Source: an uncultured Sphingomonadaceae bacterium
GTDB taxonomy: Bacteria > Pseudomonadota > Alphaproteobacteria > Sphingomonadales > Sphingomonadaceae
Length of the DNA stretch: 64,000 bases
Reading direction: 5' to 3'
Assembly: GCA_947499255.1 (NCBI GenBank)
Contig: CANMNF010000001.1
Coordinates: 992,001 to 1,056,000 of the forward strand
The notes below the pieces were generated by a model, which worked only from the letters and a program-made list of their open reading frames with translations, ran no database searches and was not told the origin of the DNA. The translations under genes were made by a program, and so were the position numbers. Of this stretch, positions 50,401-57,630 are shown piece after piece. Numbering within the stretch: the first letter of the stretch is position 1; each line of letters begins with the position of its first letter.

Positions 50401-51708
50401 ATGTGGCTTCTGGACAAGTTCCTGGCAAAAGCGATCAACACAGGTAAGCTGATCGTCACCGACCATGATGGCAAAGTCTATGAATATGGCGAAGAAGATG
50501 GCAGTCAGGAGCATGGGCCGCTCAATATCCGGCTAACCAATGCAAAAGCCGCCGCCCACATCGCCAAATATCCGCAAGTTGGCGCAGGCGAGGCCTTTAT
50601 GTGGGGCTGGCTTACCGTTGATGAGCCTTATGACATTCGCGATATGGTGCTGTTTGTCACCATGAATACCAAACGTTTGGGCGATGAAGCGATCAAGCCC
50701 AAAGGCCCTTTGCGCAAAGCGGCGCAAAAGGCGATTGCCAAGCTGGACGGCATCAATCTCAAAGGCAAAGCGCGCAAAAATGCCGAGCACACCTATAATC
50801 TGACGCGGCGTTTGTATGAGCTGTTTCTCGATGAGGATCGGCAATACACCATGGCGTATTATCGGGACACGGCGAACTCTTTGGAGAAAGCGCAGCTGGA
50901 CAAAAAGGCGCATATAGCAGCTAAGATGTACATGGCCGAGGCGCGCGAAATGGACCGCCCGATGCGCGTTTTGGATATCGGTTGTGGCTGGGGCGGCCTC
51001 GCCATGTATCTCAACAAACATTACGATTGCGAAGTGCTGGGCGTGGCCCTTGCGCCCGATCAGATCGCCTTTTGTAAAGAGCGCGCCGAAGCTGCTGGTG
51101 TGGCCGATAAGGTCAAATTCAAGCTGATGGATTACCGCGATGTCGAAGGCGAGTTTGACCGGATCAGCTCGGTCGGACTGCTCGAACATGTGGGCACGGT
51201 GCATTATCCGCAATTCTTTGAACATACCGCGCGGTTGCTGGCGCCCAAAGGCGTGATGTTCTCGCATTGCTGTGGCCGCGCTGGACCTCCCGGCTTCACG
51301 GATGCGTGGACGCGCAAATATATCTTCCCCGGCGGTTATATCCCCGCCCTGTCCGAGCTGGTCACGCAGAGCGAGAAATATGGCTGGCAAGTGATGGATG
51401 TCGAAGCGATGCGCTTCCATTATTCGCACACGCTGGAGGAATGGTACAAGCGCACCGTTATGCATCGCGAGGAGATCACCGATCTTTATGACGCGAATTT
51501 CTATCGCATGTGGTTGTTCTATCTGGCGGGCGCAGAACAGTCTTTCCGCCACGGAACGCTGGTCAATTGGCAGCTGATTTACGTCAAGGATCGCGAAGCC
51601 ATCCCGATGACGGGCGAGTTTGTGTTTGAAGAAAGCGAACGTCTGCGCGCTTTGGAAGAACCGCCCCAATGGCACCTTGACCCAGCGCTGAAAGAAGCGG
51701 CTGAATAG
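50401..51708 (+). CDS. cfa: Cyclopropane-fatty-acyl-phospholipid synthase (first copy)
   Basis: 435 residues; SAM-dependent cyclopropanation of unsaturated phospholipid chains. SAM site VLDIGCGWGGLAMYL, active-site Glu in VGLLEHVG, His in FSHCCG and Tyr in FHYSHTLEEWY are all present. The cysteine at the E. coli Cys354 position is replaced by Ala (FYLAGAEQSF), as in the next copy. ATG 50401 (MWLLDKFLAKAI) is chosen by alignment with the second copy; the frame is open further upstream but those codons overlap the molybdopterin gene. It lies 9 bases before the second copy. Confidence 0.92.
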   Translation: MWLLDKFLAKAINTGKLIVTDHDGKVYEYGEEDGSQEHGPLNIRLTNAKAAAHIAKYPQVGAGEAFMWGWLTVDEPYDIRDMVLFVTMNTKRLGDEAIKPKGPLRKAAQKAIAKLDGINLKGKARKNAEHTYNLTRRLYELFLDEDRQYTMAYYRDTANSLEKAQLDKKAHIAAKMYMAEAREMDRPMRVLDIGCGWGGLAMYLNKHYDCEVLGVALAPDQIAFCKERAEAAGVADKVKFKLMDYRDVEGEFDRISSVGLLEHVGTVHYPQFFEHTARLLAPKGVMFSHCCGRAGPPGFTDAWTRKYIFPGGYIPALSELVTQSEKYGWQVMDVEAMRFHYSHTLEEWYKRTVMHREEITDLYDANFYRMWLFYLAGAEQSFRHGTLVNWQLIYVKDREAIPMTGEFVFEESERLRALEEPPQWHLDPALKEAAE

Positions 51709-51717
51709 CGGCCCACG

Positions 51718-52968
51718 ATGAGCACTACTCTCCTGCGCAAATTCCTTGGAAAAGCGATCACGCAAGGTCGCCTCACTTTGATTGATGCCGCCGGCAATCG
51801 CAGCGATTTTGGCACGCCGACAAAGGGCTTTCCCGAGGTGAGCGTGCGCATGGCCGACAAGCATGTCGCGCGCGATATCTTGCTCGATCCGCGGCTTGGT
51901 GCTGGTGAGTGCTATATGGATGGCCGGCTGATCGTTGAAGAAGGCGATATCATGCAGGTGATCGGGCTTTTGCGGGCCAACAACAATTGGGAACGCGGGG
52001 GACGGATTAAGCCACAACGCGGCCTTAACCAGTTGAAGAACAAGCTGAAGTTTATCGCTAGCAGCTTTAACAAGCGCGACAGTTCGAAACGCAATGTTGC
52101 CGCCCATTATGACATCGGCAATGATCTCTACGCGTTGTTTTTGGACGAGGACTATTGGCAATATAGCTGTGCCTACTGGCCGCGCGAGGATATGACGCTG
52201 GACGAGGCGCAGGTGGCCAAGCTGGCGCATATCGCGGCAAAACTGCATTTGAAACCGGGACAGCGCGTTGTTGATATCGGTTGTGGTTGGGGCGGCCTTG
52301 CGATCTATCTTGCCAAGCATTTCGATGTGCATGTGACCGGCATTACATTGAGCGAAGAACAAACCGCTTTGGCGCGCGAACGGATCGCTGCGGCGGGGCT
52401 GGATGACAAGATCGATATCAAGCTGATCGATTACCGCGAATTCGCCAATTCGGGCGAACGGTTTGATAGGCTGGTTTCTGTTGGCATGTTCGAACATGTC
52501 GGACGACCGCAATTTGAAACCTATTTCCGATCCTGCGCCAATTTGCTCAAGGATGATGGTGTTATGCTGATCCACACCATCGGGCGCTTTGGTGGCCCCG
52601 GCACAACTGATGCCTTTACCACCAAATATATTTTCCCCGGCGGCTACATCCCCGCGCTCAGTGAAACTTTGGCGGCGAGCGAGAAGATGCGGCTCATCCA
52701 TACCGATATCGAAAACTTGCGCGTGCATTATGCGCTGACTCTGCGCGAATGGTACAAACGCTGTGTCGCGAACAAGCAAGCGATCATCGCTCTGATGGAT
52801 GAGCGGTTTTATCGCATGTGGCTGTTCTATCTCTCTGGTGCGACAGCCGTCTTTGAACATGGCGGTATGTGCAATTACCAGATCCAATATACCCGCAGCC
52901 GTCATGCTCTGCCGCTGACGCGCGATTATCTCACCCAGAATGAGCAGGCTTTGACACACCGCACTTAG
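51718..52968 (+). CDS. cfa: Cyclopropane-fatty-acyl-phospholipid synthase (second copy)
   Basis: 416 residues, a clear paralogue of the preceding gene. SAM motif VVDIGCGWGGLAIYL, VGMFEHVG, IHTIGRFGG and VHYALTLREWY are intact. The two copies share the same N-terminal start (STTLLRKFLGKAITQG versus WLLDKFLAKAINTG) and differ throughout, so the duplication is old. The pair might act on different lipids or positions, or one may perform a related methyl transfer; sequence alone does not say. Confidence 0.92.
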   Translation: MSTTLLRKFLGKAITQGRLTLIDAAGNRSDFGTPTKGFPEVSVRMADKHVARDILLDPRLGAGECYMDGRLIVEEGDIMQVIGLLRANNNWERGGRIKPQRGLNQLKNKLKFIASSFNKRDSSKRNVAAHYDIGNDLYALFLDEDYWQYSCAYWPREDMTLDEAQVAKLAHIAAKLHLKPGQRVVDIGCGWGGLAIYLAKHFDVHVTGITLSEEQTALARERIAAAGLDDKIDIKLIDYREFANSGERFDRLVSVGMFEHVGRPQFETYFRSCANLLKDDGVMLIHTIGRFGGPGTTDAFTTKYIFPGGYIPALSETLAASEKMRLIHTDIENLRVHYALTLREWYKRCVANKQAIIALMDERFYRMWLFYLSGATAVFEHGGMCNYQIQYTRSRHALPLTRDYLTQNEQALTHRT

Positions 52969-53055
52969 CAAACGCGATGTGCGTGCAAACTTGACGGGGA
53001 CATCGTGCGCCACACCGCGCTTGCACGCCGCGCGCGGTCTGTGCACAGCCGCGCG

Positions 53056-54402
53056 ATGGTTGCCACCGCCCCGCCTTTGACCCGCGCCAGCGTCTTTCAG
53101 CAGGCCTGGCCCATCATGCTGGGTCAAGCCTCCGTGCCGCTGGTGGGCATTGCTGATACCGCCGTTATCGGACGCACTGGCGATACTGCGGGATTGGCCG
53201 GTGTGGCGTTGGGCGCGAGTGTCATCATGCTGGTCTTTTGGACCTTTGGGTTTTTGCGCATGGGTCTCACCGGCCTTACCGCACAGGCTGCCGGACAGCA
53301 GGACACACGCGAAGTCGAAGCGCTTTTGTTGCGCTCGCTGGTGATCGGCTTTGCGCTTGGGCTGGTGCTGTGGGCGTTGAGCTGGCCGATTACCGCGGGC
53401 CTGTTCGCACTGCTTGCTGGCGGAGAAGCGATCACTGCGGAGGCGAGCGCTTATGTCACAGCGCGTTTCTTCGGGGCACCCGCAGCACTGACGGTCTATG
53501 CCTTTACCGGATGGCTGCTGGGCCTTGGCCGCACGCGAGAGGCGCTGGTGCTGCAAATCGTGATGAACATCGCCAATATCGCAGCCGACATCACGCTTGT
53601 CTGGGGCTTTGACATGGGCGCGATGGGCGTTGGCATGGGCACCGCCTTTGCTGAATGGCTCGCGCTGATTGTGGGCCTGGCGCTGGTGGCGCGGGTGGCG
53701 GGTGCAAGCTTGCCTGCAATCATTGCGCGCACACCGCGCGCTACTTTGCTGGACCGGGCGCGCCTTGCTGCTTTGTTTGCTGTTAATCGGGACATCATGA
53801 TCCGCACAATTGCGCTGCTGATCTTGTTCCTGTGGTTCGCCAATGCCGGCGCGCGTTTGGGCGCGGCGGCTCTGGCGGCCAATCACATCCTGCTGCAATT
53901 CGTCAATTTTGCCGCCTTTGTCCTGGATGCTTTCGCTTTCACCGCAGAAAGCCGGGTGGGCAATGCCATCGGCCAAAAGGACCGCGCGCGTTTCCTCAAA
54001 GCGATCCGCCTGACATCGGAGTTCTCGCTGGGATCGGCTGTGCTGCTCACTGGCATGTTCCTGATCGCAGGCGGTCCGATCATTGCTTTCCTTGCCAAGG
54101 ACGCAGCCGTTGTCGCCGAAGCGCGCAGCTATCTCATCTATGCCGCATTGATCCCTTTGCTTGGTCTTCCCAGCTGGATGCTGGATGGCATCTTTATCGG
54201 CGCCACCAGAGGCGCGGCTTTGCGCAATGCGGGGGTGATGGCGACGCTGGCTTATATCGCGTTGGATCTGGCGCTGCGCCCCATGGGCAATCAAGGCGTG
54301 TGGCTGGCGTTGACGGCCAGCTTCCTTTTGCGCGCTGGCGGTCTTGCCGTGTATTTGCCTGCATTGTTGCGCGATATCAGCGCCAAACCTGATGCAAGTT
54401 GA
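53056..54402 (+). CDS. MATE family efflux transporter (DinF-like)
   Basis: 448 residues with 12 predicted helices; cation-coupled drug or metabolite export. The first segment AWPIMLGQASVPLVGIADTAVIGR and the central repeat VNRDIMIRTIALLILFLWFANAGARLGA are characteristic of the MATE/DinF branch. ATG 53056 (MVATAPPLTRA) is the best start; a GTG at 53005 in frame adds an Arg-rich extension that is not family-like. It is downstream of the Cfa pair, 87 bases away. Confidence 0.9.
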   Translation: MVATAPPLTRASVFQQAWPIMLGQASVPLVGIADTAVIGRTGDTAGLAGVALGASVIMLVFWTFGFLRMGLTGLTAQAAGQQDTREVEALLLRSLVIGFALGLVLWALSWPITAGLFALLAGGEAITAEASAYVTARFFGAPAALTVYAFTGWLLGLGRTREALVLQIVMNIANIAADITLVWGFDMGAMGVGMGTAFAEWLALIVGLALVARVAGASLPAIIARTPRATLLDRARLAALFAVNRDIMIRTIALLILFLWFANAGARLGAAALAANHILLQFVNFAAFVLDAFAFTAESRVGNAIGQKDRARFLKAIRLTSEFSLGSAVLLTGMFLIAGGPIIAFLAKDAAVVAEARSYLIYAALIPLLGLPSWMLDGIFIGATRGAALRNAGVMATLAYIALDLALRPMGNQGVWLALTASFLLRAGGLAVYLPALLRDISAKPDAS

Positions 54403-54681
54403 GCGGCTGCGATGCAGTGCCGCAATTATCCGGGCAAACATCGCAGTGCGGATGAACGCAATGGCATCTGTTTTGTGGCCGCGCGGGCGCGCATGGCAGG
54501 GCTTCGCGCAACCATGCTCAGCCGCTGCTTGCGCAAGGCCAAAGCGTGGCTGAAACCCAGCAGCCAGCGCAAGCTGGATTTGAACGCAGGCATTATCGTG
54601 TGAAACCAGCTCGGACTGCGGCGTTGCAGCGCGGGCCTTCGCCTGATAGGCGCGCCTCCGATTCTGTACGAAAGAGTGCCC

Positions 54682-55902
54682 ATGTCCGATATCAAGAAAG
54701 TCGTCCTCGCTTATAGTGGCGGGCTCGATACCAGCGTCATCCTCAAGTGGCTGCAAGTCACCTACAATTGCGAAGTTGTCACCTTCACCGCCGATCTTGG
54801 CCAAGGTGAGGAACTGGGCCCTGCGCGCGATAAGGCGACGCTGATGGGTATCCCGGATGAGAGCATCTATATCGAAGATCTTCGCGAAGAGTTCGTGCGC
54901 GATTTTGTGTTCCCCATGTTCCGCGCCAATGCCCGGTATGAAGGTGATTATCTGCTCGGCACTTCCATTGCCCGCCCGCTGATCTCGCAACGTCTGGTTG
55001 AGATCGCGGCGGAAACCGGCGCGGATGCCATCGCGCATGGCGCAACCGGCAAAGGCAATGATCAGGTCCGTTTTGAACTGTCTGCCTATGCCCTCAACCC
55101 CGATATCAAGGTCATCGCCCCGTGGCGCGATTGGGAACTGACCAGCCGCACGGCCCTTATCGAATGGGCCGAAGCGCATCAGATCCCTGTGCCCAAAGAC
55201 AAGCGCGGCGAAAGCCCCTTCTCTGTCGATGCGAACCTGCTGCACACCTCTTCGGAAGGCAAAGTGCTGGAAGATCCATGGGTGGAAACGCCCGATTATG
55301 TCTATTCGCGCACCGTCAATCCCGAAGATGCGCCCGATACACCTGAATATATCGAGGTGGGTTTTGAGCGCGGCGATGGCGTCTCCCTGAATGGTCAGGC
55401 GATGAGCCCCGCGACCTTCTTCGAAGCTTTGAACGATCTTGGCCGCAAGCATGGCATTGGCCGGCTTGATCTGGTCGAAAACCGCTTTGTCGGCATGAAA
55501 TCGCGCGGCATGTACGAAACACCGGGCGGCACGATCTATGCCGCGGCCCATCGCGGGATTGAACAGATCTGCCTTGATGGCGGCGCTGCGCATCTCAAAG
55601 ATGAGCTGATGCCGCGTTATGCAGAACTGATCTATAACGGCTTCTGGTTCGCGCCAGAACGCGAAATGCTGCAAGCCGCGATCGATCACAGCCAAGCACG
55701 GGTGAGCGGCACAGTGCGCCTCAAGCTCTATAAAGGCGGTGTGTATCTGGCTGGCCGTAAGTCTGAAAACTCCTTGTATTCTGAAGCGCATGTGACGTTT
55801 GAAGACGATGCTGGCGCCTATGATCAGAAGGACGCAGCAGGTTTCATCAAGCTCAACGCTCTGCGCTTGAAACTGCTGGCAGCTCGCAAACGCCGCGGGT
55901 AA
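54682..55902 (+). CDS. argG: Argininosuccinate synthase
   Basis: 406 residues; joins citrulline and aspartate with ATP in arginine biosynthesis. The PP-loop [38 protein letters not shown] and the tetramer region [17 protein letters not shown] are all present. ATG 54682 opens directly before [11 protein letters not shown]. It stands alone, about 280 bases after MATE, and its downstream region begins the unusual intergenic stretch. Confidence 0.96.
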
Positions 55903-55992
55903 TTCGCCGCGAAAAGCGTTGCGATATTGTCGCTGCAACTGCGAAAAGCGTGTTGCATTGCAATAACTTACCTCACTTGCGATGAGCGGTTG

Positions 55993-56039
55993 AGTTATCC
56001 ACCCTTGTCCACTGGCAATTGCGCCAAAAGTGGATAACT
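55993..56039. promoter_or_regulatory. DnaA-box-like inverted repeat
   Basis: AGTTATCCAC (55993-56002) and its exact complement GTGGATAACT (56030-56039) enclose 27 bases. Each arm holds TTATCCAC, eight of nine positions of the DnaA box TTATCCACA. A weaker TTGTCCACT lies between them (56005-56013), and two more near-matches (ATGTCCACT and TTATCCAAT on the minus strand) lie at 56247-56262. The arrangement could be a DnaA binding cluster, or merely an argG 3' hairpin. Confidence 0.45.
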
Positions 56040-56040
56040 G

Positions 56041-56540
56041 CATGTTGTCAGCCTTGCCCGAATCGCTGAGGCCACGCATCTTCACTCCATCGAAAGCAAC
56101 AAAGGTAACGCATCTTCGGATCGCCTGCCGAGAAGAAGGATCGAAACCCAAGAAGCAATCGACGCAATGTTCAAGTTTCTGCGCTGAGAAACGCAAGCGG
56201 TAAATTCGCAAGAGCAAACGCAAGCGAATCGTTGAAGCGGTTGCAAAGTGGACATTGGATAACCGGTAGGAAACCCCGGTGTTGATGGAACCGTGATCGC
56301 AAGATCGCTGGAGCCGCTTGAAGCACCAGGAAGCTACAGGTTGCGGACAGACCGCTTGGAGCGATGAAGCCCTGCAAAGGAGGACATCTGAGCCAGCATC
56401 AGTCCGGCACCGGCGCGAGCGCCGGGCGACATAGCCGGCAAGGCCTTCGGGCCCAAGGTGACACGCCAGGCGTCAAGTGCTTCTTCGGAAGCCCGCACGT
56501 TGCTGAGAGTGGGGTCGGTAGCAATACCGGCCCCATTTCT
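56041..56540 (+). ncRNA. Candidate structured non-coding RNA
   Basis: Hairpins read directly from the plus strand: ATC(TTCG)GAT at 56112-56121; ATTCGC/GCGAAT at 56203-56229; ACCGG/CCGGT at 56262-56280; GATC(GCAA)GATC at 56295-56306; CCGGCG/CGCCGG at 56410-56425; GGCC(TTCG)GGCC at 56442-56453; GCTTC(TTCG)GAAGC at 56479-56492; and a final 10-bp stem GGGGTCGGTA(GCAA)TACCGGCCCC at 56511-56534, followed by ATTTCTGTT. Three canonical C(UUCG)G and two GNRA loops on one strand fix the orientation. No tmRNA, RNase P or SRP RNA core motif is found. Ends are guesses; the 3' stem may be the terminator. Confidence 0.45.
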
Positions 56541-56646
56541 GTTGGAGCTCTATCAACGCCACAGGTTACCTCAGCTTGGCGCTCACCACCCACTCCTCAC
56601 CGTCACATGGCTGACATCTGCTGCTCCCTTTGCTATGTCGTGCGCG

Positions 56647-57276
56647 ATGAGAGAGGGGATCTCTACCCAGCACCGCGCGCCTGCTCTGGCGTTTGCACTG
56701 CTTGCTCTGGCCTTTGCCGGAGCTGTTGGAGCGCCTGCTGCAACGCTCGCCCAAGAGGTGCGGGACGCGCAGGACACCGCCTACGGTGCCGCCAGCGACA
56801 GCGACCTTGGCAGCGTTCCTGGCAGTGACCCCGATGCTGAGGAGCGCCTCGACATACTGCCTGTCGATGAGGAGCTGACCTTCGCGCAGGCCTTTGCACC
56901 GTTTGACGAGCCTGCCGAGCCTGACCTGCCGCCCACCGCCGTCGACATCACCACCATCGAGCCTGCCACCGATACCGCGCGTGATCTGGGCGCAGGGGTT
57001 GCCTCCTATTACGGGCGGCGGTTCCATGGGCGTCGCACTGCCAATGGAGAGCGGTTCAACATGCGCGCACTTACTGCCGCTCACAAGACGCTGCCCTTTG
57101 GCAGCCGGGTGCGGGTGACCAACACGCGCAATGGCCGCTCTGTCATCGTGCGCATCAACGACCGCGGGCCGTTCATCGCAGGCCGCCATATCGACCTTTC
57201 GCGCAGGGCAGCTGAGGAGATCGGCATGATCCGCTCTGGCCACGCATCGGTCCAGCTTGAGCTGCTGGTGAGCTAG
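56647..57276 (+). CDS. rlpA: RlpA-type septal ring lytic transglycosylase/DPBB protein
   Basis: About 209 residues. Signal peptide ([20 protein letters not shown]), an acidic Asp/Glu/Pro-rich linker, and a C-terminal double-psi beta-barrel with [18 protein letters not shown] and the catalytic Asp in VRINDRGPF. It lacks the SPOR domain that binds denuded glycan in E. coli RlpA, so its localisation may differ. Start chosen at ATG 56647; ATG 56635 is also possible and neither has a good ribosome-binding site. It is followed 6 bases later by the L7/L12-like gene. Confidence 0.85.
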
Positions 57277-57282
57277 GCCGCT

Positions 57283-57630
57283 ATGCACATCCCCCTCTGG
57301 CTCATCATCGCCAATGTCGCCTTGATCGTGGTGCTGATCGGGCGGCTTTGGCGTTCGGGCGAGAGTGGTGATGACATGATCGCGCAGCAACGCCTCGCCA
57401 CGCTGCCGCCCTCATCCAACACACCGGCCAATACACCGGCCAGTACACCCGCACCATCCTCAACCACCACCACCAGCGCCCCACTGGACGAGAGCGCTCT
57501 GATGGCTCGCCCTGACATCGCCGATGCGCTGGCCAAGCGTCGCCACTTGGCCGCGATCCGTCTGGTGCGCCAGGCGACGGGTCTGGGCCTCAAGGATGCC
57601 AAGCAGATCGTGGACCGGTACCGGCATTAG
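57283..57630 (+). CDS. Membrane-anchored protein with an L7/L12-like C-terminal domain
   Basis: 115 residues: one N-terminal transmembrane helix (LWLIIANVALIVVLIGRLW), a Pro/Thr/Ser-rich linker (about residues 40-68), and a C-terminal segment RHLAAIRLVRQATGLGLKDAKQIVD that matches the ribosomal L7/L12 C-terminal domain (PF00542-like). It is too short and misplaced to be the ribosomal protein. Similar small proteins are seen in several bacteria, without a known function. It directly follows rlpA, so it may be co-transcribed with it. Confidence 0.7.
   Translation: MHIPLWLIIANVALIVVLIGRLWRSGESGDDMIAQQRLATLPPSSNTPANTPASTPAPSSTTTTSAPLDESALMARPDIADALAKRRHLAAIRLVRQATGLGLKDAKQIVDRYRH

Follow-up and report, generated by a model that had tools for sequence, protein, structure and literature searches.

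In the window, by which we mean the whole 64,000-nt stretch of the Sphingomonadaceae contig under analysis, a conserved unit is situated between argG (54676-55902; Pfam PF00764 and PF20979), which forms its upstream flank, and an rlpA-like gene that encodes a DPBB domain (Pfam PF03330) and forms its downstream flank. The unit is composed of a putative promoter region at about 55995-56082 and, on the plus strand, a predicted noncoding RNA of about 450 nt (56089-56541). A first-pass annotation had placed a large structured RNA at 56041-56540; the end of this placement holds, whereas the unit begins earlier. Two side observations concern the surroundings. A small protein encoded at 57283-57630 contains a short stretch similar to the C-terminal part of ribosomal protein L7/L12 (PF00542, 27.5 bits), and a mechanically called open frame spanning 1896 aa (50533-56223, minus strand) runs antisense to argG and its neighbours, probably as a by-product of codon use.

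Upstream region and extent of the RNA

For comparison 95 loci were fetched. After removal of the duplicates L031-L035, of L080, L093, and L094, which are without argG, and of L029, which gave no argG match, 86 loci (the window and 85 relatives) were aligned. A motif filter dropped L028 and left 85 loci, 63 of which form alignment A2. Conservation peaks at about 55984-56066 and at the 3' end, and between these peaks lies a variable but structured middle.

Three octamers resembling DnaA boxes are located just upstream of the putative promoter. Box 1 (TTATCCAC, 55995-56002, plus strand) corresponds to TT[ATG]TCCA in 83 of the 86 aligned loci, box 2 (TTGTCCAC, 56005-56012, plus strand) retains TCCAC in 85, and box 3 (TTATCCAC, 56030-56037, minus strand) reads GTGGA[AT]AA in 82 and keeps the same offset in 84. 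The putative -35 element (TTGCCC, 56054-56059, with a conserved CTTG in the alignment) and the putative -10 element (CATCTT, 56077-56082; CAGCTT, CATTCT, CACTTT, and similar in other loci), both on the plus strand, are separated by a 17-base spacer. An E. coli-type consensus scan did not accept the -35 element and called no promoter here. In three loci of genus g35 (L042, L053, and L064), box 3 and the -35 element are 11 bases closer to each other, i.e., by approximately one helical turn, a change that would preserve the helical face.

Between the -35 and -10 elements lies a GANTC site (GAATC, 56060-56064, plus strand), GANTC being described as the CcrM methylation site in the cited part of PMC3667746. 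Within the 52 bases after box 3 and ahead of the RNA start, GANTC occurs in 86 of 100 loci, these being the 86 aligned loci (76 with GANTC) and 14 further ones picked with a motif of which the RNA start is part; L059, which is shortened by the alignment, was scored as a miss. Six downstream control windows yielded 0-4 of 100; after letter shuffling, the mean was 16.5 and the maximum 28. Offsets from box 3 are mostly 21-23 (72 sites) and otherwise often 28-30 (11 sites). The middle base varies, with GACTC at 53, GAATC at 26, GATTC at 11, and GAGTC at 3 sites. The extended form YGAKTCG, reported for activation by GcrA in the cited part of PMC7987155, is found, counting both strands, in 70 of 100 loci. 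Close to the inferred start, GANTC/YGAKTCG is thus found where the sequence of a GcrA/CcrM-controlled promoter would have it.

The RNA is predicted to begin near 56089, judging from the -10 element and a conserved ATCGRAAG-like start, and to end at a terminator-like hairpin. From the inferred start to this hairpin, the RNA of the window measures 450 nt; across 85 loci, with L059 excluded, lengths range from 377 to 602 nt (median 482).

Secondary structure, strand, and identity

On the plus strand of 56041-56540, the three hairpins with UUCG loops (at 56115, 56446, and 56484, with stems of 3, 4, and 5 pairs, respectively) and the two with GCAA loops (at 56299 and 56521) listed in the first-pass annotation were recovered. 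These tetraloops had been regarded as exceeding chance and as restricted to the plus orientation. The former applies to UUCG, as three such hairpins occurred in none of 1000 dinucleotide shuffles (mean 0.109), and less so to GNRA, since two hairpins were reached in 8.6% of the shuffles. The latter fails in the window, where one UUCG hairpin with 4 pairs occurs on the minus strand, but stands as an asymmetry over the 86 loci (222 UUCG hairpins on the plus versus 14 on the minus strand, and 148 versus 16 for GNRA). For the window sequence, the folding energy reaches a z-score of -1.93 on the plus strand (4 of 100 shuffles as good) and -0.83 on the minus strand (19 of 100). This single-sequence signal is modest and only hints at an RNA; it is the comparison of relatives that carries the case.

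In the 3' domain (56410-56503, plus strand), helix a:d (56410-56415 with 56498-56503) surrounds helix b:c (56419-56428 with 56464-56473) and a side hairpin (56479-56483 with 56488-56492), as supported by pair counts in 63 loci; the window's own 56410/56503 is C-C and forms no pair. Including the end hairpin, 94.9% of the cells of this fold are paired in the 63 loci and 195 cells at 19 of 36 pairs are double-changed, compared to means of 87.5% and 58.6 in shuffles, none of 500 of which reached any of five measures, a contrast that is inflated by sequence relatedness. Slid controls, in which relatedness is kept, gave 36-45% paired and at most 36 double-changed cells. Covarying stems, named beforehand as support for the RNA, are seen in this comparison, and together with the conserved unit they bear out a structured RNA between argG and rlpA.

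Initially, a:b and c:d had been chosen as the consensus for the 3' domain. Due to constrained folding, in which a:d plus b:c was more stable in 61 of 63 loci (exceptions L061 and L078), covariance model R2 was built on the latter fold, which we take to be the ground state of the modelled domain. Among the 48 rows from other genera, the proportion of paired cells amounts to 97.2% for a:b, 92.1% for c:d, 95.8% for a:d, and 94.7% for b:c; the last three values exceed all 500 shuffles, and the paired cells of a:b were matched by 50 of 500. The corresponding values for the 15 same-genus rows are 100, 92.5, 84.8, and 97.0%, with so little variation that these rows reveal little about a switch. Part of the dual pairing is automatic, because strands a-d resemble one another.

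In the 5' and middle regions, RNAalifold on 30 same-genus loci revealed two plus-strand elements with double changes. One is a long-range helix (56165-56170 with 56252-56257) with inner helices inside, in which pair 56168/56254 occurs as UA in 19 and CG in 6 loci. The other is a helix (56278-56283 with 56322-56327), in the window capped by a GCAA hairpin, with double changes at 6 of 6 pairs, e.g., UA in 17 and CG in 10 loci for 56282/56323. When structures derived from 14 sequences of the genus were evaluated on 15 further ones (L014 omitted), 77.7-82.7% of the cells were paired (shuffle maxima 71.5-76.7%) and 93-102 were double-changed (maxima 54-60) in three of three splits. The reverse strand of this part folds almost equally well (-86.5 versus -89.5), with similar covariation. 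For this reason, the assignment to the plus strand rests on the tetraloops, on the excess of G-U over A-C cells (115:32 for a:d plus b:c, 53:12 for the side hairpin, and 65:0 for the inner end hairpin), and on the end hairpin.

The end hairpin (56510-56535, followed by a tail to 56541, plus strand) had been described as a 10-bp stem with a weak T-tail. The tail is present as ATTTCT, and according to the consensus fold the stem is 11 pairs long (56510-56520 with 56525-56535). All 14 helix pairs are standard in 63 of 63 loci, and the loop, GCAA in the window, reads GCAA in 57, GCGA in 23, UUCG in 4, and otherwise in 2 of the 86 loci. An exchange between GNRA and UUCG loops is a kind of swap known from RNA hairpins. 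The E. coli-type consensus scan did not accept the hairpin as a terminator.

A scan of the window against Rfam 15 returned a single match, a tRNA at 1694-1765, and for 55700-57000 just two sub-threshold matches appeared at E up to 5. In agreement with the earlier view that the RNA is neither tmRNA nor RNase P RNA, both are encoded elsewhere in the genome, i.e., alpha_tmRNA (RF01849) at G000:C1:71904-72246 (237.7 bits) and RNase P RNA (RF00010) at G000:C3:281068-281512 (265.9 bits). In the open-licence literature searched, no paper on this RNA was recognised. Considering the conserved unit, the covarying helices of the 3' domain, and the held-out tests of the 5' and middle regions, the candidate label of a novel ncRNA, outside any Rfam 15 family, appears supported.

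Occurrence among relatives

By blastn, the unit was detected in 33 of 61 relatives, which equals 33 of the 37 genomes of the genus (own included), and in 77 of 296 genomes of the order. Matches to R2 of at least 60 bits occur in 78 of the 296 order genomes and in 4 of 385 genomes of the class, all of them in family f1; some of the matching loci built the model and thus match by construction, and both searches were run with Infernal's stricter filters. At this threshold nothing was found outside the family among the 385 class genomes, eight of which gave weak matches of at most 39 bits. At E <=0.001, 125 of the 296 genomes match, of which the 47 below 60 bits are mixed.

The three-box pattern is present in 79 of the 296 genomes, once per genome (control 0), and 70 of these are also on the R2 list. 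Seven of the nine others, from genera g32, g59, and g30, display argG, the boxes, a CAGTTTTAAGTCATCGGAAGG-like RNA start, and a GTGGGGGCCGACAGCAATGTCGGCCCCCGTTT-like end hairpin, with an RNA of about 550-705 nt in the six measurable genomes. The match in G146 falls in a coding stretch and looks like chance. Diverged copies were found 3' of argG in four more genera. Genus g36 has argG, the boxes, and the RNA start; its loci L265 and L266 carry the upstream TCCAC boxes wider apart than in the window, by about one helical turn. In genera g47 and g64, a box, GANTC, and the start motif are present, without argG in the fetched locus. Genus g33 contains one-box copies away from argG. L204 (51.8 bits), L207, L209, and L210 of this genus resemble diverged copies that have a single box and GANTC, and L206 and L208 show no box. 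Also among the matches below 60 bits, L211 represents an isolated terminator behind a protein-coding gene. In named genomes, a 34-base pattern of the end hairpin matched at least 118 stretches; among the 80 matches listed are Erythrobacteraceae of the genera Altererythrobacter, Aurantiacibacter, Alteraurantiacibacter, Croceibacterium, Erythrobacter, Parerythrobacter, Pelagerythrobacter, Pontixanthobacter, Porphyrobacter, Qipengyuania, and others.

Within the own genus, no trace of the unit was observed in the 900 bases after argG in G025 (L181) and G033 (L182). G020 (L186) keeps an end-hairpin remnant only, and G021 (L185) a shortened unit. G032, whose contig ends at the locus, was left out of this tally. 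Due to the loss of the unit in some species of the genus, an essential role is disfavoured.

Interpretation and comparison with known systems

Taken jointly, the data favour a noncoding RNA gene under replication-linked control, exerted via GANTC and/or DnaA, to which we assign a probability of roughly two in three. As judged from sequence, the locus very probably represents an autonomous ncRNA gene, and good confidence attaches to the RNA having its own promoter and end. An input of CcrM/GcrA to the promoter seems fairly likely. Control by DnaA is less sure than the GANTC-based control, its odds being slightly better than even. A sigma-70 type promoter with GANTC between -35 and -10 would initiate transcription near 56089, and the three DnaA-box-like sites just upstream make DnaA a candidate regulator. 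The methylation state of GANTC would be read by the sigma-70 cofactor GcrA, the gene of which was found in seven of seven genomes examined and is likewise present in G020, G025, and G033, where the unit has been lost. Because a passing fork turns fully methylated GANTC half methylated, DnaA and GANTC methylation might together produce an RNA pulse coupled to replication, the RNA ending at the terminator-like hairpin.

As to its mode of action, the many hairpins closed by tetraloops and the sequence-constrained 3' domain would suit an RNA that folds and binds protein better than one that acts by antisense pairing, a speculative notion that we hold tentatively, as protein binding is possible rather than probable. 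More doubtful still is the idea of a replication-clock RNA, in which a pulse timed by DnaA and GANTC would meet a 3' domain that switches between exclusive folds (a:d plus b:c and a:b plus c:d), holding and releasing a protein during chromosome copying.

The best surviving alternative, which we consider unlikely, retains the ncRNA gene, but has the octamers bound by another transcription factor and GANTC present incidentally, without cell-cycle control. The octamers are indeed imperfect DnaA boxes, since boxes 1 and 3 have C or T as ninth base instead of the A in the consensus TTWTNCACA (cited part of PMC4585315), and the perfect 9-mer TTATCCACA forms no origin cluster in G236 or G010; furthermore, GANTC is absent from the 52 bases after box 3 in 14 of the 100 loci. 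The variants of the boxes are, on the other hand, mostly allowed by the DnaA consensus (TTATCCAC, TTTTCCAC), and GANTC, at least 20 times commoner than in the control windows, holds its position despite variation of its middle base, which speaks for replication-linked control.

Due to the boxes, a replication origin (oriC) had also been suspected. GC skew, which is weak, and KOPS in twenty 20-kb samples per genome put the unit inside a replichore and away from the origin in G236 and G010. Sites resembling parS occur in 9 of 20 genomes, with 20 places in G176, and represent a weak origin marker. The position off the origin in these two genomes would suit a replication-control DNA site of the DARS/datA kind, for which DnaA binding is the function and transcription secondary, as would the three DnaA-box-like sites, given that the E. 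coli DARS core is described with three DnaA boxes (cited part of PMC4245941). Such a site is nevertheless highly improbable in view of the several hundred bases of covarying RNA and the conserved end hairpin downstream of the boxes, and of the g33 copies with a single box.

Equally improbable is a 3'-UTR-derived RNA processed from the argG mRNA. argG is located upstream in all aligned loci, which were chosen for argG, and also in genera g30, g32, g36, and g59, but the spacer at 55903-55977 is unconserved in the 86-locus alignment, in contrast to the conserved promoter block. Furthermore, the distance from argG to the boxes amounts to approximately 670 bases in one g30 locus, and the g33 copies occur away from argG.

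A very long structured 5' leader acting in cis on rlpA, which the first-pass annotation had offered as a candidate, is very unlikely. The co-oriented rlpA follows the unit in 84 of 86 aligned loci, and the end hairpin was not called a terminator, both of which would agree with a leader. Constant co-oriented adjacency failed, however, as rlpA is reversed in L061 and was not found in one aligned locus, and no rlpA match was obtained in g30, g32, and g59 (loci of seven unit-carrying genomes, fetched to a few hundred bases past the end hairpin). In addition, the conserved terminator-like hairpin with its T-containing tail separates the RNA from rlpA, and argG is the steadier neighbour of the unit.

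A protein-coding gene on either strand can practically be dismissed: in 71 of 86 loci, open frames on the minus strand of the RNA exceed shuffled ones in length, but the plus strand of the element contains only 15% T, which thins minus-strand stops and may be the source of these frames, the window's own element has no minus-strand frame of at least 80 aa, the frame at 56030-56203 has no Pfam match, and conservation at the codon level, named beforehand as a refutation of the RNA, was not seen, since indels across the aligned rows are not in threes (208, 121, and 101 with remainder 1, 2, and 0, respectively; L014 omitted) and starts and stops are not kept (the ATG at 56364 in 1 of 30 rows).

Large structured RNAs are few in bacteria, and many are without an assigned job. 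For the ncRNA gene proposed here, a readable promoter names DnaA, CcrM, and GcrA as candidate regulators, so that timing becomes testable in culturable Erythrobacter, Qipengyuania, and Aurantiacibacter. If the proposal is true, sphingomonads possess a cell-cycle ncRNA whose natural losses inside one genus provide ready comparisons.

With OLE, GOLLD, and ROOL, as far as their descriptions go, the RNA shares a long chain of many hairpins and an unclear task; it is smaller and has no Rfam match. These three families are included in Rfam. The loci DARS1, DARS2, and datA of E. coli, in the cited parts of PMC4245941 and PMC4585315, share with the unit a cluster of DnaA boxes off the origin, whereas here a structured RNA follows the boxes. 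Similar to the GcrA-activated promoters of Caulobacter and Brevundimonas, as described in part in PMC7987155, GANTC lies near a putative sigma-70 type start, with YGAKTCG in 70 of 100 loci and gcrA in the genome; the candidate promoter differs in that it would drive an RNA gene and in its additional DnaA-like boxes. CcnA of Caulobacter crescentus is likewise an alphaproteobacterial ncRNA tied to replication control and cell-cycle regulators, with DnaA boxes and regulator sites at its gene (cited part of PMC8959179). According to this description, CcnA has 182 nt and is located in the origin, its DnaA boxes are intragenic, and its promoter carries a CtrA box, whereas the unit described here is about 450 nt long and lies inside the replichore, with boxes upstream and GANTC in the promoter. 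A CcnA-like ncRNA was therefore rejected on position and length; by function, CcnA is the nearest system seen, differing in size, place, and layout.
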